A stretch of DNA of 64,000 bases from an uncultured bacterium. Its GTDB lineage: Bacteria > Cyanobacteriota > Vampirovibrionia > Gastranaerophilales > Gastranaerophilaceae. The notes beneath the pieces are model-generated. The model was not told the origin of the DNA. It saw only the letters and a list, made by a program, of their open reading frames with translations, and ran no database searches. Below are positions 3,778 through 63,452 of the stretch, piece after piece. The first letter of the stretch is position 1, and the number at the start of each line of letters is the position of its first letter. The stretch covers positions 62,001 through 126,000 of the forward strand of contig CANENE010000004.1 in the NCBI GenBank assembly GCA_947428835.1, in the 5' to 3' direction. Made by a program: the position numbers and the translations under genes.

Positions 3778-3984
3778 ATGAAAAACAACGATGCAGGCCG
3801 TACAATTAAAATCATGTACAAAAATGTCGAGTACTAATTTAATTTGGAGAATTTGGTTTCCGTACTTAAATATTTAGGGGATAACAAAAAGATTGATGTA
3901 AATGACAAAGAAGGCATAATTGAAATACTTAAGCAGCATAAAATATACGATGAACTTTTTCTTCAAGAGATTTCAAAATTATAA
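3778..3984 (+). pseudogene. Small-protein family member, copy 1 (premature stop)
   Basis: First of five paralogues in the window; function unknown. It starts MKNNDAGRTIKI after AGGAAGGA and reads in one frame to 3984 except for TAA at 3835-3837 (codon 20), where the paralogues have Glu, Gln or Lys, so one base change explains the stop. Downstream the frame still encodes the family's C-terminal motif (IYDELFLQEISKL). Promoter and leader remain conserved, so the loss looks recent, or the leader RNA may still matter. A short N-terminal peptide could still be made. Confidence 0.75.
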
Positions 3985-3996
3985 AATAAATTATTT

Positions 3997-4025
3997 AATA
4001 GGTGCATGGTTTCCGTGCACCTATT
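3997..4025 (+). terminator. Stem-loop after copy 1
   Basis: A 13-bp stem (AATAGGTGCATGG against CCGTGCACCTATT, one G-T pair) closes a TTT loop. The T-tract after it is poor, so termination strength is uncertain. Confidence 0.5.
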
Positions 4026-4069
4026 TGCAGGCTGATTTATTATAACTTGAGCAAATATGATTAACATTT

Positions 4070-4129
4070 TGTAAACATTTGTAAAAAATTCAAATTTTAT
4101 CCTAAAGTTGAAAAATGTTCAGCCGATAA
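4070..4129 (+). promoter_or_regulatory. HLR1 box plus sigma-28-type promoter, copy 2
   Basis: HLR1 box at 4070-4085 (TTTACAAATGTTTACA on the minus strand), 17-bp gap, -35 TAAAGTTG at 4103-4110, 11-bp gap, -10 GCCGATAA at 4122-4129. The -35 differs from the enterobacterial sigma-28 consensus TAAAGTTT only in the last base, and the -10 is identical to it. A leader hairpin (GAAGTGT, loop, ACACTTT) and the ACGATACACAC box follow before the start codon at 4200. Confidence 0.8.
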
Positions 4130-4199
4130 TAATTTTAGAAGTGTTTAGTTTACACTTTCTAACGATACACACTAACAAGACAAAGGAAGGAAAAATTTT

Positions 4200-4436
4200 A
4201 TGGAAAACGATGCAAGCCGCAAAATTAAAATTACATTCAAAAGAGCAGAGTATGAGATTAGAACAAAAGAGCTGGTCAATGTCTTTAGAACTTTAAAAAG
4301 CGGCCAAAAACTTGAACTTCGAAAAAAGGAAAATATTTTAAAACTCTTCAAAGAATGTAAGTTATACGATGAAGATTTTCTTAAGGTAATGTCAAGTTTG
4401 CAAAAGAGAGCTAAAAAATCCAAGAAACAGTCTTGA
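4200..4436 (+). CDS. Small-protein family member, copy 2 (78 aa, unknown function)
   Basis: I do not recognise the function. The protein begins MENDASRKIKITFKRAEYEI, has a short beta-like start, two probable helices, the family motif LYDEDFLKVMSSL, and a lysine-rich tail (QKRAKKSKKQS). There is no signal peptide or membrane segment, so it is probably cytosolic; the basic tail could bind nucleic acid or an acidic partner, which is a guess. The ribosome site AAAGGAAGG precedes ATG. Its stop codon lies inside the -35 region of the downstream antisense RNA promoter. Homology with copies 1, 3, 4 and 5 shows it is a real gene. Confidence 0.8.
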   Translation: MENDASRKIKITFKRAEYEIRTKELVNVFRTLKSGQKLELRKKENILKLFKECKLYDEDFLKVMSSLQKRAKKSKKQS

Positions 4437-4588
4437 AAAATCAAGAAAGTGGTTTATAATAAAAATACAGGGGGAAGCCCCAAAGAAACATTACTTCTTC
4501 GAGGCTTCACTTCATACCCTATAAACAAATTAGAATAATCTTTAAAATTCTTTAAAATTGCTATTATGACCGTAATAGCAATTTTTAT
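4433..4588 (+). ncRNA. Candidate antisense antitoxin RNA, module A
   Basis: A sigma-70-type promoter TTGAAA (4433-4438), 16 bp, TATAAT (4455-4460) predicts a start near 4467. The RNA would end at a strong intrinsic terminator: stem AAAATTGCTATTA (4554-4566) against TAATAGCAATTTT (4573-4585), then a T-rich tract. The body holds a GAAGCC/GGCTTC pairing. The RNA is fully antisense to the hydrophobic peptide gene on the minus strand, and the terminator stem lies inside that coding region. Confidence 0.65.
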
Positions 4589-4603
4589 TGCTGATTTATT
4601 CAT
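4454..4603 (-). CDS. Small hydrophobic peptide, module A (49 codons, candidate type I toxin)
   Basis: The ATG at 4603 follows a near-perfect ribosome site AAAGGAGGTGAAATT. The peptide begins MNKSAIKIAITVIIAIL, a short hydrophobic membrane-like segment matching the module B peptide (IKIAIKAIIAIL). Module B stops at codon 25; here an altered frame after the hydrophobic part adds a 30-residue polar tail, so copy A may be a decayed or modified form. Its internal repeat forms the terminator of the opposing RNA. Type I toxins are typically short, hydrophobic and opposed by an antisense RNA; toxicity is inferred only. Confidence 0.55.
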   Translation of the reverse strand: MNKSAIKIAITVIIAILKNFKDYSNLFIGYEVKPRRSNVSLGLPPVFLL

Positions 4604-4609
4604 AATTTC

Positions 4610-4657
4610 ACCTCCTTTCCAACCAATTCTTCATAAATTGTCTGTGTTGGGAGAGGT
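4610..4657 (-). promoter_or_regulatory. Ribosome-site sequestering hairpin, module A leader
   Basis: In the peptide mRNA, CCAAC (4650-4646) pairs with GTTGG (4623-4619), and ACCTC (4657-4653) can pair with GAGGT of the Shine-Dalgarno (4614-4610). The equivalent stem in module B is CCTAGC/GCTAGG, so the pairing is kept while the bases change. Confidence 0.55.
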
Positions 4658-4681
4658 TAGGTATTTACCCTTTTTGGGTTT

Positions 4682-4711
4682 ATTATAACTTATGATAAAC
4701 TTTTTTGTAAA
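4682..4711 (-). promoter_or_regulatory. Probable promoter of the module A peptide mRNA
   Basis: On the minus strand, TTTACA (4711-4706), 18 bp, TATAAT (4687-4682). The -35 sits inside the HLR1 box of small-gene copy 3 (4706-4721), so a protein bound to that box should block this promoter. Confidence 0.45.
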
Positions 4712-4765
4712 CATTTGTAAAAAATTCAAATTTTATCCTAAAGTTGAAAAATGTTCAGCCGATAA
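4706..4765 (+). promoter_or_regulatory. HLR1 box plus sigma-28-type promoter, copy 3
   Basis: HLR1 at 4706-4721 (TTTACAAATGTTTACA on the minus strand), 17 bp, -35 TAAAGTTG at 4739-4746, 11 bp, -10 GCCGATAA at 4758-4765. The leader hairpin is GGAAGTGT (4773-4780), a 7-nt loop, ACATTTCC (4788-4795), with one G-T pair, followed by ACGATACACAC. Confidence 0.8.
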
Positions 4766-4833
4766 CTAATTTGGAAGTGTTTAAAATACATTTCCTGACG
4801 ATACACACCAAACTAGATAAGGAAAGGAAAATT

Positions 4834-5076
4834 ATGGAAAACGATGCAAGCCGAATGATTAAGATTAGATTTAGAAATTTGGATTATCAAATCAGAACAA
4901 AAGAACTAACCTTTTTGTTTAAAGCACTTGAAAGAATCAGAGAAGGCAGATGCGAAGCAAGAATTAAAAGCAACAGAGACATTCTTAATTTGATGGACAG
5001 GCACAATTTATATGATGAGTATTTTTTAAACAAGATGTCAAAGTTGAGAAAGAGAAATGCAAAATGTAAAAGTTAG
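4834..5076 (+). CDS. Small-protein family member, copy 3 (80 aa, unknown function)
   Basis: Closest to copy 2: MENDASRMIKIRFRNLDYQI at the start, RTKEL in the middle, LYDEYFLNKMSKL near the end, then a basic tail (RKRNAKCKS). I chose ATG 4834 after AAGGAAAGGAAA because it matches the other copies; a longer frame from 4744 would run through the promoter -10 and leader. The charge pattern and absence of a membrane segment suggest a cytosolic protein. It is followed directly by the second antisense RNA promoter, repeating the arrangement of copy 2 and showing tandem duplication of a unit of roughly 620 bp. Confidence 0.8.
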   Translation: MENDASRMIKIRFRNLDYQIRTKELTFLFKALERIREGRCEARIKSNRDILNLMDRHNLYDEYFLNKMSKLRKRNAKCKS

Positions 5077-5078
5077 TC

Positions 5079-5225
5079 TTGAAAAATCATGAAAATGATT
5101 TATAATAAGAATATAGGGGTAAGCTCCAAAGAAACAAGACTTCCTTGAGGCTTCACTTCACACCCTATAACAAAGAATAAATAAATGTTAAAATTGCTAT
5201 AATTGCCTTTATAGCAATTTTTATT
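5079..5225 (+). ncRNA. Candidate antisense antitoxin RNA, module B
   Basis: Promoter TTGAAA (5079-5084), 16 bp, TATAAT (5101-5106); predicted start near 5113, length about 110 nt. The terminator is AAAATTGCTATAA (5190-5202), 6-nt loop, TTATAGCAATTTT (5209-5221) with a T-rich tail. The RNA covers nearly the whole coding region of the 24-aa peptide on the other strand. Promoter, body and terminator are conserved with module A. Confidence 0.7.
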
Positions 5226-5239
5226 TGTTCATTTGTCAT
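5165..5239 (-). CDS. 24-aa hydrophobic peptide, module B (candidate type I toxin)
   Basis: ATG at 5239 with the ribosome site AAGGAGGCGAAT. The peptide begins MTNEQIKIAIKAIIAIL and ends TFIYSLL: a short polar head, one lysine in a hydrophobic helix, and no tail. Size, hydrophobicity, opposing RNA and locked ribosome site all match the general plan of type I toxins acting at the inner membrane, but I do not recognise it as a named family. It lies 3' of a broken HTH gene on the same strand, which could supply readthrough transcription; no clear promoter of its own was seen. Confidence 0.65.
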   Translation of the reverse strand: MTNEQIKIAIKAIIAILTFIYSLL

Positions 5240-5244
5240 ATTCG

Positions 5245-5289
5245 CCTCCTTCCTAGCCAATTCTTCACAATTGTCTGTGCTAGGGGAGG
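5245..5289 (-). promoter_or_regulatory. Ribosome-site sequestering hairpin, module B leader
   Basis: CCTAGC (5284-5279) pairs perfectly with GCTAGG (5257-5252); the stem continues after a 2-nt bulge with CCTCC (5289-5285) against GGAGG (5249-5245), which is the Shine-Dalgarno core. Translation would need the 5' arm to be opened or removed. Confidence 0.6.
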
Positions 5290-5314
5290 GTTGGGCGCTT
5301 ACCCTTTTAATTTT

Positions 5315-5588
5315 TTATTCATCTATCAAAGTAAAATCTTCACCAAGCTCGTCTTCTAGCATTTTCATAAGCTTGGATGGCTTTAAGCCAAGTGCTTGGG
5401 CAATTCTATAGAAACTTGTAATTTTGCAATCAATAAGCCCACGCTCAACCCTACTTAGATTACTTACATCTATGTCGTATGCATGCGAAAAATTTCTTCC
5501 TGAAAGCCCTTTTTTTTGTTCTTATTTTTCGGACAATTTCACCCAATTGTTTAGTTATTTGTAAAGTTTCTTTACTATGGCGTTGCAT
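5315..5588 (-). pseudogene. HTH regulator, frameshifted paralogue of 5667-5939
   Basis: Starts MQRHSKETLQ and, after a run of eight A residues (plus-strand T run ending about 5517), the reading frame shifts by one base. In the second frame it continues as a DNA-binding HTH ending LKPSKLMKMLEDELGEDFT, identical over that stretch to the intact neighbour. One extra A explains the break. The lesion lies in a homopolymer, so either slippage or sequencing error is possible. The N-terminal frame alone would give only a short peptide. Confidence 0.7.
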
Positions 5589-5599
5589 ATAAATAATTG

Positions 5600-5665
5600 A
5601 AGCATCCTTTCCAACCATACCTAGTGTATTGTCTGAGTCAAGAAGGGTTATACTGCCCTTTTAAA
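5600..5665 (-). repeat. Third, degenerate copy of the toxin-type leader
   Basis: Shares with the leaders of modules A and B the run ATTGTCTG (plus strand), an adjacent TTTCCAACCA and the TACCCTTTT-like end. It lies between the two HTH paralogues, where a peptide would be expected, but leads into the broken HTH start instead. It indicates that an HTH-plus-leader unit was duplicated. Confidence 0.45.
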
Positions 5666-5666
5666 T

Positions 5667-5939
5667 CTATTCGTCTATCAAAGTAAAATCTTCGCCAAGC
5701 TCGTCTTCTAGCATTTTCATAAGTTTGGATGGCTTTAAGCCAAATGCTTGAGCAATTTTATAAAAAGTTATAACTTTACAATCAATTGTACCTTTTTCAA
5801 TTCTATAAAAGTGTCCTGAATCAATTTCATATTCGCAAGAAAATTTATGTTTTGAAATGCCCGTATCTTGCCGCAATTTTTCAACCAACGCGCCAAGTGT
5901 TAAGCTAAGTTTTGTAGAATTTTCATTTCGATGTTGCAT
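5667..5939 (-). CDS. HTH-type regulator (90 aa)
   Basis: A cro/C1-like helix-turn-helix protein: SLTLGALVEKLRQ leads into the recognition part ISKHKFSCEYEIDSGHFYRIEKG, then an acidic C-terminus DELGEDFTLIDE. I use the internal ATG at 5939 because the paralogue at 5588 starts at the same place (MQ-); a longer frame reaches 5987. The sequence TTATGTTTATATGC occurs twice just upstream, 36 bp apart, which could be an operator. It probably controls the local toxin-type genes or itself; no partner is proven. Confidence 0.7.
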   Translation of the reverse strand: MQHRNENSTKLSLTLGALVEKLRQDTGISKHKFSCEYEIDSGHFYRIEKGTIDCKVITFYKIAQAFGLKPSKLMKMLEDELGEDFTLIDE

Positions 5940-6012
5940 ATAAACATAATAGTTGCTATTATTATAAATAGTTCGGCATATAAACATAACAATTAAAGGA
6001 GTAATAATGGTA

Positions 6013-55950: not shown

Positions 55951-56394
55951 TTATACCTTTTTCCAGTTGCAGAATTTTTGAAAGTTGTCTACAGTGTGAA
56001 ACATCATCCAGCGTGTTATAGCATTGACCCCTGAAACATAAAGAAGCCTTTCAAAGACTTTGTCTGCAAAGTATCTGTCATTGTCTACATAGTGATGGTT
56101 TTCGCATAAGATATCATGGATTAATGATGCGATTAAAAATTTGGGTTCAGTTTTAGAGCCGATTAGTCTCCAAAATAGTCTTGGAATTGTGGCTCCATCC
56201 CAGCAATAACCTTTGTTAATCGTAAATTCATATACTTCAAATTTCTTGTAGTCCCAAAGTGTGACTTCAATGTCGTTTTTTAAGATAAAAGGTTTCTCGC
56301 AGTTTTCTTCTTTGTTTTTGGGATAGTTGAAACCGACATCGGGAATGTTTGAAAATAATATTGCAAGGTGTTTGTCTTCATACCATTTAAGCAT
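55951..56394 (-). CDS. DUF1353 family phage protein
   Basis: 147 residues from ATG 56394 (MLKWYEDKHL). The DUF1353 pattern is present: TINKGYCWDGATIPRLFWRL, then LIASLIHDILCENHHYVDNDRYFADKVF. A longer frame to 56457 would overlap the upstream gene by 70 bp. The family is common in phage late regions near lysis genes; its activity is unknown, though the HD-like metal residues suggest a hydrolase. Confidence 0.78.
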   Translation of the reverse strand: MLKWYEDKHLAILFSNIPDVGFNYPKNKEENCEKPFILKNDIEVTLWDYKKFEVYEFTINKGYCWDGATIPRLFWRLIGSKTEPKFLIASLIHDILCENHHYVDNDRYFADKVFERLLYVSGVNAITRWMMFHTVDNFQKFCNWKKV

Positions 56395-56845
56395 TTTGCG
56401 CTTCGCCTTCTTCTTTAATAGGCAGCTTCTTGTTTTTAAAAAGATAGTCGAGGTCATCTGCCGTATAGCCTAATAATGCCCCGATTTGATTGATTAAAGG
56501 GTTTCCTCTAAAGTAGTCATTTGCATATTCAAATTCTATTAAAGCTTCAGGGTTTGTTATTTGTGATTTTAGTTGTTCAGGTGTTATTCCTTTGTCTTTG
56601 AAAAGTGCTAAAAATACTTCTCTTTTTGTTAAAGAAAGCAAGTCTAATCTTTGGCGTTTTTCAATTGCTTTTTCATCTTCCGTTTTCATAGGGCATTTTT
56701 CCGCTAAATACCAGCCGCCATCAATGTCTGATTGAGCTACATTAAGCATTGTCATCCCAATTGAAGAATAAAAGGAATTGTTTGTACCTAATCCAACTTC
56801 ACAAAGTCCAGTTTCATTGTTTATAACTTTTGCATATTTAATCAT
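56387..56845 (-). CDS. Phage protein, tail-fibre-associated (152 aa)
   Basis: Starts MIKYAKVINNETGLCEVGLG, ends in an acidic tail (PIKEEGEAQNA). The pattern of an N-terminal YAKVxNxETGLxxVG domain followed by helices occurs in small proteins encoded after phage tail fibres, perhaps as assembly factors. It overlaps both neighbours by eight bases. Confidence 0.6.
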   Translation of the reverse strand: MIKYAKVINNETGLCEVGLGTNNSFYSSIGMTMLNVAQSDIDGGWYLAEKCPMKTEDEKAIEKRQRLDLLSLTKREVFLALFKDKGITPEQLKSQITNPEALIEFEYANDYFRGNPLINQIGALLGYTADDLDYLFKNKKLPIKEEGEAQNA

Positions 56846-57779
56846 CTGTTTTTGCTCCTTTTACAGGGTAGAAAATTGTGCTTACATTGCCGCTTCTCAT
56901 ATATAGGCTTATAACATCACCTTTGGCGACAGGAATAATAGAGATTTGTTGAGCGCTTGGTGTGCTTACTTTCAATAAAACTTCTTCGTTTATGTATAGA
57001 TATAAGTAACTGTTAGAGCCCGCACAGCTGCCGCATATGTATCCATTAGTAGGGGCTGTATAGGGTAAGCTTGCCCAAATATCTACCCCTGCTGTGTAAT
57101 CAGGCATTGACCAGTTTATTGTTTTATCTGCAAAAGATTGCGAAGGAATGGTATTGGCTAGATTTATGTCAGCTTTTGTTTGAATTGTTTCTTGTATTTC
57201 GTCAATAGTTTCAAATTTTTCATTTTTGCTTACTATATTTTGTTCAATAGCTTTAATTTGTTCTTTGCTATCTTGTATATTTGTTTGAATTTCTATAATT
57301 TTATCTAGATTTTTTTTGCTGTCCGCCGCATTTGCATATATGTTTCGAACTATATCATCAAGTGAGATGTCGCTATTTTCTTCTGCTTTTAGACATAGTG
57401 ATGTTTTTCTTGCAAGTATTTGTATTAACCTTGTCAAATAATCAAGTGAATATTCTAACGTTTCAAGATTTAAAAGAGAACTATTATTATATTGAATTTC
57501 TTGTGCGATTGGCAATACCAGTTCAATTGATAATTTCTGACCTTCTTTTAGTATTTCATATTTGGAACCTTCTATTGGAAATGTTATATAGCTTCCGTTT
57601 CTGTTTTTTATTTCATTTATTGCATAGTCCAAATTTAGTTTTAAGGTCTCTTTGGTGCCATTTTCATCAAAGAAATTGACACTAAGCTGGTCATAGTCTT
57701 CAATGTAAAAATCAAAATCAAAAGTTTTTGTTGAATTGTTCCCTATGTAATTATTTACAGGTAATATGTCGTATATCAA
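56838..57779 (-). CDS. Phage tail-fibre-like protein (313 aa, TTG start)
   Basis: From TTG 57779, nine bases after AAAGGAG, the N-terminus reads LIYDILPVNNYIGNNSTKTF, a T7-gp17-like attachment domain (NNSTKTFDFDFYIEDYDQL). A middle coiled coil (residues about 125-195) follows, then a C-terminal beta domain with SMPDYTAGVDIWASLPYTAP and a Gly/Ser-rich region that would bind the host. A frame reaching 57860 has no ribosome site. It overlaps the upstream stop by 29 bases. Confidence 0.7.
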   Translation of the reverse strand: MIYDILPVNNYIGNNSTKTFDFDFYIEDYDQLSVNFFDENGTKETLKLNLDYAINEIKNRNGSYITFPIEGSKYEILKEGQKLSIELVLPIAQEIQYNNSSLLNLETLEYSLDYLTRLIQILARKTSLCLKAEENSDISLDDIVRNIYANAADSKKNLDKIIEIQTNIQDSKEQIKAIEQNIVSKNEKFETIDEIQETIQTKADINLANTIPSQSFADKTINWSMPDYTAGVDIWASLPYTAPTNGYICGSCAGSNSYLYLYINEEVLLKVSTPSAQQISIIPVAKGDVISLYMRSGNVSTIFYPVKGAKTDD

Positions 57780-58227
57780 AATTTTCTCCTTTTGTATAGT
57801 AAAATATTTTGTAATCAAATCTGCCCATAATATCTTTTTGCGCAAAACCGAGTTTGCCAAGCCATTTTAATGCTTTGAAATTAGACTTATAAATATAGTT
57901 ATATAAAATATCGTTTTCTTTTTTAAATATGTTTATTTTTTCTGTAATATATTTAAAAACTTCTTTTTTGTGCTGTTCAATTTTATTTGTGCTCAAAAGC
58001 CATATAACCGATGTTTTGACATTGGTTATTATGTAGCCGCCTATTATCAGAGGATTGTACATATTGTCTGCAAGAAAGTATGTTGTTTCTGTGTTTTTTA
58101 AACAAACATCTATGAATTTTTCTTTGTAGTTTTTAGGATATGAAAATACAAGTTCTTCCTTATCTTCTTTCTTTATATCCTTTAGAAATGCAATTAGATT
58201 TTGCTTGTTTATTTCTATTTCTATCAT
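57751..58227 (-). CDS. Phage gp13-like (GNAT-fold) protein
   Basis: 158 residues. The shape is that of small acetyltransferase-fold phage proteins (DUF2833, gp13 of T7-like phages): NPLIIGGYIITNVKTSVIWLLST followed by KYITEKINIFKKEND and NFKALKWLGKLGFAQ. These help virion assembly rather than act as enzymes in characterised phages. Overlaps the tail tubular B stop by four bases. Confidence 0.6.
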   Translation of the reverse strand: MIEIEINKQNLIAFLKDIKKEDKEELVFSYPKNYKEKFIDVCLKNTETTYFLADNMYNPLIIGGYIITNVKTSVIWLLSTNKIEQHKKEVFKYITEKINIFKKENDILYNYIYKSNFKALKWLGKLGFAQKDIMGRFDYKIFYYTKGENFDIRHITCK

Positions 58228-60290
58228 GTGCTTTCAACCTCTTCTAACGAAATGGTTGCTTCAATTGAAAGAATTGTTAATGGCAGCGGTAAATCCTGTA
58301 TTATTTTAATAGATGATTGAATTGAAGCGTTTTTCATTGGACAAAGTTCTACATCTTTGTTGAATAATTTTTCGGGAAAATCCACACTTTCTTTACTTCT
58401 TGCGCTTAAAGAAAAGCCCGAATTATCATTTTGGATTTTTAATTCTTCTCTGGAATCCAAAATTTTAATTTCCACTTTGTTGATTATTTTTTTAAGCCCG
58501 AGGGTTCCTTGACCTTCAATATTTAATGTTTCCATTTCAAAAGCATACGGCAGCCCTATTGTGATGTTCTTTGCTTTGTATGGCAGTGTTAGTGTGCCAT
58601 TTTCATCTATAATTAAATCTTGAACTACGCCATAGTCTAAAACTGCATTGACTTTCTCACCTTTCAGATGCTCCAGTCCCGATATTTTTTGAACCTTGTT
58701 ATCGAAGGTCTTTTTTAGAGCACAATCTAAAAAGAATGCTTCATCCATGCGTTTTACCACTCTTGAAGTAAATCTTTCAATGTAGCGGACTTCTTTAGAA
58801 TTAATTGTTCTTTTTATAACAAAATATGCTGTATCTTCACTACCTTCTCTTATGATTGCAACGCTTTCAAAGCTTCCTTTTGTCTTGTGGGTGTGCCAGG
58901 CTGCAATTTTTTGAGTTTTGTTGTATGTGAGTATATTTAAAGTTCCATCGTCTAAAACACAGATAAGAAGTCTGTTGGGCTCTTTTAGATAGCCCATATC
59001 GACAATTTTTTTGCCTTCAAACAGGTGACTTGCAAGAAGAGTCAATTCTTCGCCATTGTAGGAGTTTGAATAATAATCAAATCCAAGATCCCTTACGATA
59101 TTGCCTCCTGATTGAACAAAAAGAACCATTGAGCCCGATATAACAGGTTTTATTGAAGATGTTCCATAGTACGTTTGTAATTTTGCAACAGGTGCAGGAT
59201 TTGCACAAAATACTCCATCAGTTCCATTTACAATCCATTCGGCATTAGTTGTCATAACGATTAAATCATCAAAGGGCACAAGGTGTTTTATTTTTCCCGG
59301 TGCGTTGTCGTGTATGGTGACATTTATACTGTCCGTTGCATTAAGAAGGTGTGAAATATTAAAGTTGTTATTTGTTCCGCTTTGGCTTGCAAAAAGGGTT
59401 TGCGGTGATTTTGAGCCTCCCGAATAGATTTTTCTCTCCTGAAAAAAGCAAACGCTGCTTGGATTTTCGTTTTCAAACGGGTTTTTAAAAATTGGTGCAC
59501 AGCTTGTTAAGTCCGGCTCTATATTATCATCTTTAAAAGTTGTTTTTCCATTACTTGCCGTTCCCAAATACCCGAATAGCCCGTTAACAGATCTGTAGAT
59601 GTTATATTGAGAGGCATTTGCAACCTCATCCCAGCTTATTGTTATATATTCGGAAGTCGTCCAATAGCCTTCCTTGTGTCCCGTGACACTTGCGATTTGG
59701 CTTGAGGTGCTTTCTTCAAGCGTGTCTTTGTCTACAGCACAAACAACATATTCGTATACTGTGGTATTGGCTGATGTTGAACCTGTATATATTGCTTGCA
59801 CATTATTTGGTGTTTCGATTGCCGATTTGAACTCAATTTTATTGAGCTGCCAGTTATTATGTTCAATTCTTGTAAGTTCATAAGGACTGTAATTTTCGTG
59901 CACAAGACTTATTGAATCCATATTTTGGCAGTAATTGATTTCGAAAAGATCTTGTTCATCATAAGGAGAGGCAATTTCATATATTTCGTTGTCTTCATCT
60001 AAAATATAGCCGCCGTCTTTTAAAAATCTTATGTATTTATGTCCGAATTCCAATATATAATTTTGGTTAAAATTAAATATAAAAGGAATAATTCTTGTTT
60101 TTTTATCTTCGTATTTGCATTTGGCAAGATATTCAAGTCCGGGGCGGTTTTGTACACAGCCTTCCTGTAGAACTATTCCGTTTGTCAGATTTTTTAATCC
60201 GAGTTTATATTGCTCCAAATCCACTCTGCCTTGAAGCGACGGAGACAATATTCCTTTTGAAAATGAATTTTGTGTAATTCTTATACTCAT
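58224..60290 (-). CDS. Tail tubular protein B-like (nozzle) phage protein (688 aa)
   Basis: The largest phage gene here. It begins MSIRITQNSFSKGILSPSLQ, followed by NGIVLQEGCVQNRPGLEYLA, a typical start for podovirus nozzle/stabilisation proteins. A fibronectin-type-III-like stretch at about 160-260 (YEYVVCAVDKDTLEES, ITISWDEVANASQYNIYRSV) lies inside. It would form the tail tube below the adaptor. Abuts the tail tubular A gene by 1 bp. Confidence 0.75.
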   Translation of the reverse strand: MSIRITQNSFSKGILSPSLQGRVDLEQYKLGLKNLTNGIVLQEGCVQNRPGLEYLAKCKYEDKKTRIIPFIFNFNQNYILEFGHKYIRFLKDGGYILDEDNEIYEIASPYDEQDLFEINYCQNMDSISLVHENYSPYELTRIEHNNWQLNKIEFKSAIETPNNVQAIYTGSTSANTTVYEYVVCAVDKDTLEESTSSQIASVTGHKEGYWTTSEYITISWDEVANASQYNIYRSVNGLFGYLGTASNGKTTFKDDNIEPDLTSCAPIFKNPFENENPSSVCFFQERKIYSGGSKSPQTLFASQSGTNNNFNISHLLNATDSINVTIHDNAPGKIKHLVPFDDLIVMTTNAEWIVNGTDGVFCANPAPVAKLQTYYGTSSIKPVISGSMVLFVQSGGNIVRDLGFDYYSNSYNGEELTLLASHLFEGKKIVDMGYLKEPNRLLICVLDDGTLNILTYNKTQKIAAWHTHKTKGSFESVAIIREGSEDTAYFVIKRTINSKEVRYIERFTSRVVKRMDEAFFLDCALKKTFDNKVQKISGLEHLKGEKVNAVLDYGVVQDLIIDENGTLTLPYKAKNITIGLPYAFEMETLNIEGQGTLGLKKIINKVEIKILDSREELKIQNDNSGFSLSARSKESVDFPEKLFNKDVELCPMKNASIQSSIKIIQDLPLPLTILSIEATISLEEVEST

Positions 60291-60291
60291 T

Positions 60292-60879
60292 TTATCCTCT
60301 TGAATCTAAATAAGTTTCTTGCTCATAAGTTATATCCGTGCCTTCTGTGGCATTTAGGACTTTTGCATGTTTTAACAGAGTTATGTACTTCTGATAGGCA
60401 ATTTCGCCTTTTTGCATATTTCCTGTGAGAACATTTGAAGTAAGTGATGCCAAATAGTGTGCAAGTGCTATTGAAAATTCGCTTGTAAAGAATGTTTCTT
60501 TTTCTATTCTTTTTGTATACCTTAAAACAGGTTGTTTTATATTTGTAAGTATGATTTTGCTTGAATTTTCATCGCATGCTATCATAAATTTTTGTGCAGT
60601 ATGATTATCTTTTTCAAAAACTTCTCTTGCTGAAATGCAATTATTTGGATATTCAAAAGAGTATTTAAATTTTCCTGTATTTTTGCTGACCAAAGACAGC
60701 TCTTTCAAACTTGATGCAAAATTCCAGTCGAAATCTTTTAAAACAAAGTCTCTGGCTAACTCATAGTAGTTGTTAAGTAGAATTATTCTTGAATCTTGCG
60801 ATTTTGTGTTTTCAACAGGTGCCGAAATTCCAAGTATGTTTAGTGCGATATTAAAAATTTGTACTTTAGAAAAACCCAT
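60292..60879 (-). CDS. Tail tubular protein A-like (adaptor) phage protein
   Basis: 195 residues from ATG 60879, after GAAGGGAAATTGT. Reads MGFSKVQIFNIALNILGISA, then FVLKDFDWNFASSLKEL, which is typical of the adaptor (gp11/TTPA) family that joins the portal and nozzle in podoviruses. The longer frame to 60924 is not supported. It overlaps the upstream gene by 14 bases. Confidence 0.78.
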   Translation of the reverse strand: MGFSKVQIFNIALNILGISAPVENTKSQDSRIILLNNYYELARDFVLKDFDWNFASSLKELSLVSKNTGKFKYSFEYPNNCISAREVFEKDNHTAQKFMIACDENSSKIILTNIKQPVLRYTKRIEKETFFTSEFSIALAHYLASLTSNVLTGNMQKGEIAYQKYITLLKHAKVLNATEGTDITYEQETYLDSRG

Positions 60880-61408
60880 ACAATTTCCCTTCTTCTTTAT
60901 TGCCTTCATACCACTGTGCCGCAACGGAATTTTCGCTTTGCAGATAGCTCATAGCTTTTCCAAATAAGCCTTCATTGTAGTCGTGCTTTATGTTTCTTGC
61001 GGTGTCTAAGTATGAATTAGCTTGTTTAAAATAGCTGCCTGCCTGTGCGGCCGAATTTTCTTGTGTGATTCTTGCATTTGTATTAGCTGTATCAATTGTA
61101 TCTTGGTAATTGAGCAGGTTAGTTCCGCTATTTGAATCAAATCCGCTTGCCGCTGCTTTTGCTTTTTCGAGATTTGCTTGCTGCAGTCCTTTGATTTTTT
61201 CTTTTCTTGAATTTTCAATGCCTTCCTGCAGTGTTTGCTGCCCTTGTCTTTTTGCGTTTAGTGCGTTTTGATATGCGGTTTGCATTTGATATTTTGCGTT
61301 TGATCTTTCATTTTTAAGGTTTGAAAGTTGTTTTGCCCTTTCTAATGTTTGGCTGATGGCAAAAAAAGTTATTGATACCGGGTCTGCCCCCGGAATAGGT
61401 GTACACAT
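60866..61408 (-). CDS. Internal-virion-protein-like phage protein (180 aa)
   Basis: An Ala/Gln-rich helical protein: MCTPIPGADPVSITFFAISQ then long coiled helices (RSNAKYQMQTAYQNALNAKR, LEKAKAAASGFDSNSGTNLL), the style of gp14-like internal virion proteins. Such proteins leave the capsid at infection to form a channel. No catalytic motif. Ahead of it lies a terminator at 61448-61472. Confidence 0.65.
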   Translation of the reverse strand: MCTPIPGADPVSITFFAISQTLERAKQLSNLKNERSNAKYQMQTAYQNALNAKRQGQQTLQEGIENSRKEKIKGLQQANLEKAKAAASGFDSNSGTNLLNYQDTIDTANTNARITQENSAAQAGSYFKQANSYLDTARNIKHDYNEGLFGKAMSYLQSENSVAAQWYEGNKEEGKLYGFF

Positions 61409-61447
61409 ATTATTCTTGTCTCCTATGTTTGGTTTTGTTTTAAAATT

Positions 61448-61472
61448 AAAAAAAGGCAGGCAGAGCCTGCCT
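61448..61472 (-). terminator. Intrinsic terminator between capsid and tail genes
   Basis: On the minus strand, GGCAGGC, 3-nt loop, GCCTGCC, then seven T residues. It should lower transcription of tail genes relative to capsid genes. Confidence 0.85.
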
Positions 61473-61496
61473 GAGATTATAATATGGAAGAAGTGG

Positions 61497-61871
61497 CTAT
61501 TCTAAATTTGAAAAAGTTGCACCTGCAGTTATAGCCCCTGTTGTAGGCGCCGTTCCTTCAATTGTGTATAGAATTCTCATATATCCTTGGTTTCCCTTTG
61601 GAAACTGCGAAATTGGGAATTTATTACCTGCTTTTAATTGTGCAAGCAATAATTTTGATTCTATTAAAGTTGTTGGCGTGCTAAAATCTTCGCTGTTGCT
61701 TGTTTGTAGTGCAATTGTTAGTGAAGTTAGGTTATCAAAGTCACTTGTGACTTGTGCAAAAAACGGAAGAAATGAAACATCTCCTTTTCCAAATTTAATT
61801 ATGTTCTGCGATGCTGCTGTTGCAGTGATAGTTTGATTATCTGAAAATAAATTTTGTGAATCTAGTAACAT
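61497..61871 (-). CDS. Head decoration-type phage protein (Bbp16-like)
   Basis: 124 residues: MLLDSQNLFSDNQTITATAA, SFLPFFAQVTSDFDNLTSLT, IALQTSNSEDF and a C-terminal YMRILYTIEG. This matches the pattern of the small beta-rich protein encoded directly after the capsid gene in BPP-1-like phages. Spacing to the capsid gene is 11 bp. Confidence 0.75.
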   Translation of the reverse strand: MLLDSQNLFSDNQTITATAASQNIIKFGKGDVSFLPFFAQVTSDFDNLTSLTIALQTSNSEDFSTPTTLIESKLLLAQLKAGNKFPISQFPKGNQGYMRILYTIEGTAPTTGAITAGATFSNLE

Positions 61872-61882
61872 TTTTTCTCCTT

Positions 61883-62878
61883 CTAGCCTACTTTGCTTTC
61901 ATTATTTCTGATTTGATCTGCACATTTGATCGGAACGCCAAGAAAAGAAACTATAGGGCGTCCGGCAAATTCGCTCATTGTCAAATTTACGTTTTGTTTT
62001 TCAATTGCCTGGAAATGCAAGAAAGTTTCAATTGTTTCGTTGCAGTAAATAACAGTGTTTCCGGTTTTAGCAAATCTTTTAATCCTGTGATACGCTTTAA
62101 TCATAAGTTCAATAAGATTAGCCGCACTTGAAGTTCCAAGTTTTGTAACGTCAATATTGGCTATTCTTGCTGTTGATCTAAAATCGCGGACAGTAAGACC
62201 TATATCCCATTTATAGTGGTCTCTATAGACTTCATACATTTTTCCGTCTGCATCAGTTGCAGTTTGTGCACCTTTATCCACATGGTCAAAACCAAGATTG
62301 CTGCCTTTTGGATATAAAAGATGTGTATGTAAATCACCCCAGGTTATAAACCAAATAGATGTATTTGTATTAGCGGTACCTCCTGCATCAAGCACTCTAT
62401 AGCCTATTGAATTTTTATCTGTTGAAACTTTATTATAGCGCACTGCTAGGCCGTCAAATCCTGCAGGATTTGTTGCTTTTGAGCCATAGAAAATATTTTC
62501 TTGAACGGTATTGTTCATACTTTCTAAAAATGCTTGTGCTTCATTCATTCTGAACTGTTCGCAGTCTCCTTCAAGATCAGCAAGAGCTTTATCGACTTGT
62601 GAATAAGTTTCAAGCATTCCTGTTGAATCCGTAATTTGAGTGTATTCGCCTTTTGAAGCATTTACCCCTTGATAGAATTTTCTGAATTCAACTTCAGGAA
62701 GCCCGTTTCTAACTGTTGTCTTGTGGGTAGAGCCTTCGTTGCATTCGCGAACGACTGCATCTTCGATTAATGAATTGGTTTGTGATAAAACTTCAATAAT
62801 TGCACTTGCAATTTTTCCGTTTTCTCTTTGTGCAAATTTGTCTTTTAAAGTTAAATAAGTGTTTCCTTTAAGTGTCAT
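61883..62878 (-). CDS. Phage major capsid protein (BPP-1-like)
   Basis: 331 residues. Starts MTLKGNTYLTLKDKFAQREN, then TVRNGLPEVEFRKFYQGVNASKGEYTQ-like delta-domain sequence in two parts and the core phrase PKGSNLGFDHVDKG, with CNETIETFLHFQ and FLGVPIKCADQI near the end. This is a capsid family seen in BPP-1-like podoviruses and prophages, with an HK97-type fold. Flanked by assembly and decoration genes as expected. Confidence 0.85.
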   Translation of the reverse strand: MTLKGNTYLTLKDKFAQRENGKIASAIIEVLSQTNSLIEDAVVRECNEGSTHKTTVRNGLPEVEFRKFYQGVNASKGEYTQITDSTGMLETYSQVDKALADLEGDCEQFRMNEAQAFLESMNNTVQENIFYGSKATNPAGFDGLAVRYNKVSTDKNSIGYRVLDAGGTANTNTSIWFITWGDLHTHLLYPKGSNLGFDHVDKGAQTATDADGKMYEVYRDHYKWDIGLTVRDFRSTARIANIDVTKLGTSSAANLIELMIKAYHRIKRFAKTGNTVIYCNETIETFLHFQAIEKQNVNLTMSEFAGRPIVSFLGVPIKCADQIRNNESKVG

Positions 62879-62894
62879 TTTTTCTCCTTTTCAA

Positions 62895-63452
62895 TTACTG
62901 TTGTTTTTTTGTTGTGCCATACAAAATTTGTGCCGGTGTTAGTTCTTTTTCTGCCGGCGCATTTAAGATAGTGAGCGTATCTTCTTGAATCAGTTCTCCA
63001 ATTTTGTGAAACAATTTGATTAATTCAGGATGGCAAACAAGTCCTGTTGATTTAAAAATTGCTTTTAAATTGCAAGAACACATTTTTCTATACGCTTCAT
63101 TTGCTACTTTCATATATTCGTTAGTTTTTTGATAGTTGTGTGATGGAATTTCATCATCTTGTTTAAATAGATTTGAAAATTCTTCAATTTTTTCTTTCAG
63201 TTTGTCTTCATCACTCTTTTCGTAAATTGATTTTTGTTTTTTTGACATCTCCAAAGCTATTTCCATCAAAAGCTCAATATCTTCCTGATTTAAATTGAGT
63301 TTTTTTGCAATCGGGCAAAATTTTGAAATAAGCTCTTCGTCCAGTCTAAAATCATCTATATTTGTGTATTTTGTAAAATCGTAGCCAAATTCTGTTATTT
63401 TTTGACTGTCGTCTTGTAAACAAATTGGATTATTATTTAAATTTTCTTGCAT
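62895..63452 (-). CDS. Probable capsid assembly/scaffold protein
   Basis: 185 residues, acidic and helical, with no catalytic motif that I can see. It precedes the major capsid gene by 16 bp, the usual scaffold position. Mid-section CPIAKKLNLNQEDIELLMEIALEM and the C-terminal NAPAEKELTPAQILYG are notable; the latter could be a capsid-binding tail. Start ATG 63452 follows AAAGGAT. Confidence 0.6.
   Translation of the reverse strand: MQENLNNNPICLQDDSQKITEFGYDFTKYTNIDDFRLDEELISKFCPIAKKLNLNQEDIELLMEIALEMSKKQKSIYEKSDEDKLKEKIEEFSNLFKQDDEIPSHNYQKTNEYMKVANEAYRKMCSCNLKAIFKSTGLVCHPELIKLFHKIGELIQEDTLTILNAPAEKELTPAQILYGTTKKQQ

Follow-up and report, generated by a model that had tools for sequence, protein, structure and literature searches.

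Type I toxin-antitoxin systems were known only from Proteobacteria, Firmicutes and Tenericutes until a candidate from Microcystis was reported in 2025, and their narrow range has been suspected to result from search bias (PMC12390103). In this candidate, msoT1/msoA1 of Microcystis aeruginosa, the antisense RNA is complementary to the 3' end and 3' UTR of the toxin transcript (PMC12390103). Toxin mRNA and antisense RNA of the bsrG/SR4 and txpA/RatA pairs of Bacillus subtilis are convergent and overlap by about 75-120 nt at their 3' ends (PMC4147584). The aapA/IsoA systems of Helicobacter pylori, which are present in several chromosomal copies, comprise a peptide of about 30 aa, a cis-antisense RNA of about 80 nt and mRNA structures masking the Shine-Dalgarno (SD) sequence (PMC6733600). 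The E. coli antisense RNA IstR-1 acts by base-pairing at a standby site within the 5' UTR of tisB, whose SOS-induced product of 29 aa has its polar positions on one helical face (PMC8309996). In the open-licence literature, we found no type I system for Gastranaerophilales/Melainabacteria and no toxin-antitoxin system at all for Vampirovibrionia; two papers in which Gastranaerophilales and toxin-antitoxin co-occur bear titles on unrelated topics. Within the phylum, msoT1/msoA1 was the single type I system that turned up, and the paper describing it does not mention Melainabacteria or Vampirovibrionia (PMC12390103).

The DNA analysed here is a stretch of 64,000 nt (the window) from the genome of an uncultured member of the Gastranaerophilaceae. 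Gastranaerophilales ("Melainabacteria") are non-photosynthetic, mostly gut-dwelling and largely uncultured Cyanobacteriota. An initial annotation had pointed out one locus of the window, module B, as carrying the hallmarks of a type I system: a hydrophobic ORF of 24 aa preceded by a strong ribosome site, opposed by a short RNA with a sigma-70-type promoter and an intrinsic terminator lying inside the peptide gene, and a leader that can lock the ribosome site by CCTAGC/GCTAGG and CCTCC/GGAGG pairing. This anatomy was borne out in all parts within positions 5079-5305 (Table 1), including the leader stem, which covaries in the family described below. The AU-rich hairpin of the antisense terminator was not listed by a simple terminator scan and was recovered by folding. 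The complement of the 3' hairpin of the predicted toxin mRNA forms the 5' stem of the predicted antisense RNA.

Table 1. Features of module B and of related elements in the window.
Feature	Position	Strand	Basis or score
Whole conserved module B, predicted toxin mRNA (leader to 3' hairpin)	5109..5305	-	covariance model R1, 205.9 bits
Antisense RNA (putative antitoxin) promoter, TTGAAA-N16-TATAAT	5079..5106	+	11/12 consensus
Antisense -35, TTGAAA	5079-5084		
Antisense -10, TATAAT	5101-5106		
Predicted antisense RNA, ~115 nt: 5' stem-loop (5112-5169), then terminator hairpin	5113..5227	+	promoter position, folding, alignment A2; start (~5113) estimated from promoter spacing
Antisense intrinsic terminator, within peptide ORF	5190..5227	+	hairpin and T-run
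3' hairpin of predicted toxin mRNA, TATAGGG...CCCCTATA	5112..5169	-	
Predicted toxin ORF, 24 aa, MTNEQIKIAIKAIIAILTFIYSLL	5165..5239	-	length conservation, cationic amphipathic helix
SD of peptide gene, GGAGG	5245..5249	-	sequence
Predicted SD-locking leader hairpin	5252..5289	-	pairing probability, covariation
Anti-SD CCTCC with SD GGAGG	5285-5289 with 5245-5249		
Leader arms CCTAGC with GCTAGG	5279-5284 with 5252-5257		
Frameshifted XRE/HTH gene directly upstream of toxin B	5313..5590	-	three-frame translation
Third toxin-leader remnant, 3' of XRE/HTH gene C terminus	5606..5664	-	aligned to A and B leaders
Module A, second copy	4463..4671	-	alignments A1 and A2, ORF calls
Module A antisense promoter, TTGAAA-N16-TATAAT	4433..4460	+	11/12
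Module A sense (toxin) promoter, TTTACA-N18-TATAAT	4682..4711	-	11/12

Of the checks proposed in the initial annotation, the one answered here is the homologue search: the peptide module is conserved across about half of the sampled order. A DNA search of 58 relatives recovered related modules in several genera, and eight modules were aligned from leader to 3' hairpin; seven of these encode exactly 24 aa, the eighth being module A. The covariance model R1 comprises 199 positions with 48 pairs and leaves out the antisense promoter. Within Gastranaerophilales, R1 detected modules in 182 of 383 genomes, representing 32 of 52 genera, and full-length matches still occurred at weak scores. Across the whole phylum, a sample of 292 genomes gave 73 positives, all of them in the family of the host, while the order-wide search gave a few positives from two further families. 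One genome, scored with lax filters, contained 12 matches, including tandem copies; the genome of the window itself has three clear copies, modules A and B and a distant one on another contig. We also scanned about 85,000 species genomes with a pattern made up of the antisense promoter and the first bases behind it (TTGACAAAN{12,16}TAAATAATN{5,7}ATAGGGG). The pattern matched at 70 loci, and at all 70 an R1 module was present at the site. Records naming a lineage gave Gastranaerophilales, Melainabacteria or Cyanobacteria, except for two labelled Muribaculaceae and Brachyspira; modules on contigs with one or the other of these titles were noted at four loci. The Brachyspira title (RUG745) is probably wrong, as the match on this contig is the same in coordinates and score as that in a genome grouped in the host's family. 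Given the homologues in 182 genomes and the conservation of an antisense promoter that lies outside the search model, module B is far beyond chance.

The antisense promoter scored a mean of 10.9 out of 12 at one fixed position, compared to 7.0 in shuffled controls, and in 91 of 101 family modules it has the same position with respect to TATAGGG. The sense promoter is weaker (mean 9.2), which is the usual imbalance in type I systems. Module A and most family members possess a sense promoter of their own; that of module B is poor (7/12, the level of controls) compared to module A. In 78 of 87 modules, the antisense strand gives the more stable fold of the terminator region, and a T-rich stretch (6-7 T per 8 nt) follows this region in each of the 81 modules counted. 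Conversely, in 77 of 80 modules it is the mRNA strand that gives the more stable terminal hairpin of the peptide mRNA. This strand specificity, which is brought about by G-U pairs, argues that both strands are transcribed, each predicted transcript ending at its own hairpin. Of 137 distinct modules, 116 have both the peptide intact and a good antisense promoter; 19 have kept the promoter without a peptide of standard length (some of these encode intact variants of 28-30 aa), and in two the peptide is intact and the antisense promoter weaker. An apparent one-way decay, in which the peptide is lost and the antisense promoter is kept, is suggestive only, because part of the set was chosen by the promoter pattern and the counts in the unselected part (set 1) are small, 8 versus 2.

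The predicted SD-locking stem of the leader is conserved by covariation. In the eight-sequence alignment, 15 pairs of the whole structure were changed on both sides compared to 7.6 in shuffles; none of 500 shuffles reached 15, and slid partners yielded at most five such pairs. RNAalifold returned no structure for a MAFFT alignment of 70 leaders because the registers of the arms shift, and a test in which partners were shuffled among modules was used instead. Perfect five-base arms occurred in 38 of 69 modules where about 10 were expected, with a maximum of 17 in 1000 shuffles; this test is conservative, as some left arms were cut one register off. Mean pairing of the SD was 0.95 over 98 modules and 0.72 in shuffles, and folding of module B gave a pairing probability of 0.99-1.0. 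Structures that restrain translation of the toxin mRNA are common, though not universal, in type I systems. The 5' end of the module B mRNA, AGGGTAAGC (5297-5305, - strand), is in addition complementary to its 3' end, GCTTACCCC (5116-5127), a contact that might provide a long-range lock in competition with the 3' hairpin; the 5' end common to the family, AGGGTAAGTACC, is also nearly palindromic.

Taken together, module B displays at the sequence level a peptide of less than 60 aa with its own ribosome site (24 aa, SD AAGGAGG), an overlapping antisense RNA gene with its own promoter and terminator, and an mRNA structure expected to restrain translation, a covarying anti-SD leader stem; these hallmarks are conserved as a unit across about half of the sampled order. 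We therefore consider it likely that module B represents a type I toxin-antitoxin-like unit of a previously undescribed family, with the toxin and both transcripts being predicted from sequence. In such a unit, the antisense RNA would be made constitutively in excess and would form a duplex of about 115 nt with the toxin mRNA, covering it from around codon 5 to its 3' end; this duplex would block translation and/or expose the mRNA to RNase III. The leader hairpin would silence fresh or leaky mRNA as a second safety. The peptide would be made once the antisense RNA drops or is outrun by upstream transcription, and it may then depolarise the cell as TisB does, by inserting as an amphipathic helix into the inner membrane. 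A leader locking the SD this strongly would require an opening step, which counts against this reading.

The peptide itself had been described in the initial annotation as outside any known family, and for 44 family members this holds in Pfam, NCBIfam and PHROGs. No Pfam match was obtained at E<=0.1, NCBIfam gave a single marginal match, to an unrelated RiPP-precursor family (E 0.018), and the matches to PHROGs were scattered and weak, none of them convincing. Family peptides have a mean GRAVY of 1.56 and a net charge of mostly +1 to +4, and their hydrophobic moment of 1.26 exceeds that of shuffles (0.62, sd 0.31). Lys occupies position 7 in 67 of 72 distinct ORFs, and the remaining polar positions (4, 8, 11 and 18) lie on one helical face. 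Cationic amphipathic 24-mers of this kind would also suit antimicrobial peptides, and the toxicity of the peptide is deduced from its sequence alone. The antisense RNA might accordingly control a small membrane peptide that is no self-toxin but, for example, regulates a membrane complex or is secreted as a leaderless bacteriocin-like antimicrobial, and the one RiPP-precursor match fits such a role. We regard this as unlikely, as genes for export, modification or immunity do not recur beside the module. Among the neighbour genes at 100 loci, none was common to more than 14, and copies lie between ordinary genes or beside XRE/MerR regulators; with no conserved neighbouring gene, a leader-peptide attenuator was rejected as well. 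Many divergent copies per genome, tandem arrays, and a locked SD together with a cis-antisense RNA are, moreover, the pattern of type I systems.

The presence of unrelated peptides on the same RNA chassis also speaks against a non-toxin role. Beside the 24-aa class, an IK-AI-IA-L helix, we found peptides of 24-25 aa (IIMLLL), 28-30 aa (IKALVILELLAK) and 32 aa (ELLELF). The unrelated 32-aa peptide ending in ELLELF was seen on this chassis at six loci, including L031 (2076-2307) and L032 (824-1058). At four loci, among them L031, two or three modules encoding different peptides follow one another in tandem at distances of about 300 bp, which suggests diversification by tandem duplication. On balance, we favour the view that one RNA chassis, made up of the locked leader, an internally terminated antisense RNA and shared hairpins, has spread through the Gastranaerophilales in up to a dozen copies per genome, that unrelated toxin peptides were swapped on it, and that it has in places become hard-wired into XRE-regulator operons or beside prophage-like genes.

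The module is multicopy, intergenic and highly structured, with hairpins on both strands, features that would also suit a trans-acting sRNA or a MITE-like repeat, the antisense RNA or the repeated DNA then being the functional unit and the ORF incidental. The conservation of the ORF makes this very improbable. In 103 modules read individually, the ORF is exactly 24 aa long in 79, most others having 21-25 or 32 aa; 72 of the 79 24-aa ORFs start with ATG, and nearly all modules have AAGGAGG or AAGGGGG as SD. Start codon, SD, length and helical periodicity are thus kept across 72 distinct ORF sequences, while the two other frames of the same stretch are open in 0 of 87 and 40 of 87 modules. All-pairs dN/dS was uninformative due to saturation; nearest-neighbour pN/pS of the peptide ORFs was 0.48, a moderate value only, and antisense overlap and RNA structure constrain synonymous sites, too. 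Conservation ends at the two promoters with no conserved element ends beyond them, and on this ground a MITE or insertion element was rejected. Antisense control of a holin-like lysis peptide derived from a prophage is just as improbable. The match to a phage holin/anti-holin family (phrog_10340) is weak (E 0.017) and limited to module B among 44 peptides. Genes related to phrog_6034, a relative of which is also present in the prophage of the window, were seen next to modules at about six distinct loci, but the copies have no phage neighbour in common in general, and many are flanked by ordinary chromosomal genes. The pattern and BLAST searches run on IMG/VR contigs, INPHARED phages and PLSDB plasmids recovered no module, and none of the 51 matches to a looser viral pattern carried one; based on these viral scans, a phage-borne origin of the whole family was rejected.

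Within the window, the type I-like module B stands beside the remains of further copies. The toxin frame of module A is shifted by a 10-nt insertion, resulting in a reading frame of 49 aa (4454-4603). The stop of the frameshifted XRE/HTH gene is located only a few bases before the leader of toxin B, and its frameshift lies near a poly-A run. In one other genome the layout is the same, with the module just after the stop of an XRE/HTH gene. From this position and the lack of a good sense promoter, the mRNA of module B probably derives from upstream transcription through the XRE gene; as no promoter of its own is recognisable, toxin B may be weakly expressed or silent in its own genome. An intact XRE/HTH paralogue (5667-5987, - strand) shares a C-terminal stretch of 119 nt with the frameshifted copy at 91% identity. 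The leader remnant between these two HTH copies has no toxin ORF and is also supported by two repeats (D3 and D8), indicating that a unit of HTH gene and module was probably duplicated and one toxin then lost. Three tandem genes for small basic proteins of 78-80 aa starting with MENDASR, the first one containing stops, occupy 3787-5076 (+ strand) and have a common 142-nt upstream repeat. The antisense promoters of modules A and B are situated at the 3' ends of two of these genes. The proteins have no family match and only weak relatives within the genus; a first protein search found no relatives in genome contigs. The MENDASR protein was rejected as a fixed partner of the module. A prophage-like block (55951-63452, - strand) encodes a tail protein (phrog_376) and a major head protein (phrog_212). 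At the gathering score, Rfam detected two tRNAs only in the window, with sub-threshold matches to unrelated families.

If the reading of a spreading chassis is true, the family would represent the first type I system of Vampirovibrionia. A family that occurs in roughly half the genomes sampled from a major gut lineage and was missed by Rfam, Pfam and NCBIfam supports the suspicion of search bias. A calibrated model is now at hand for finding more such modules, and more than 100 natural variants are available for testing the coevolution of antisense RNA, anti-SD leader and membrane peptide. Like msoT1/msoA1 in the same phylum, the module directs its predicted antisense RNA against the 3' end of the toxin gene; however, MsoT1 is larger (~8.8 kDa as expressed with tag) and stems from photosynthetic cyanobacteria. 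With bsrG/SR4 and txpA/RatA it shares convergent, 3'-overlapping RNAs and a small hydrophobic peptide. TxpA, in contrast, is longer (59 aa), whereas in the module family the antisense RNA is predicted to end inside a 24-aa ORF and an anti-SD hairpin is built into the leader; Rfam and Pfam showed no relation to these two systems. The single amphipathic helix with its narrow polar face resembles TisB, while standby-site pairing and SOS induction are features of tisB/IstR-1, and the family peptides are without a Pfam match. The closest analogue for small multicopy peptides with an SD-masking mRNA is aapA/IsoA, a likeness by architecture only. AapA mRNAs use a 5'-3' long-range lock and metastable hairpins, whereas a local leader stem dominates in the module family, in which module B, with its possible contact between AGGGTAAGC and GCTTACCCC, may have a counterpart of the AapA long-range lock as well.
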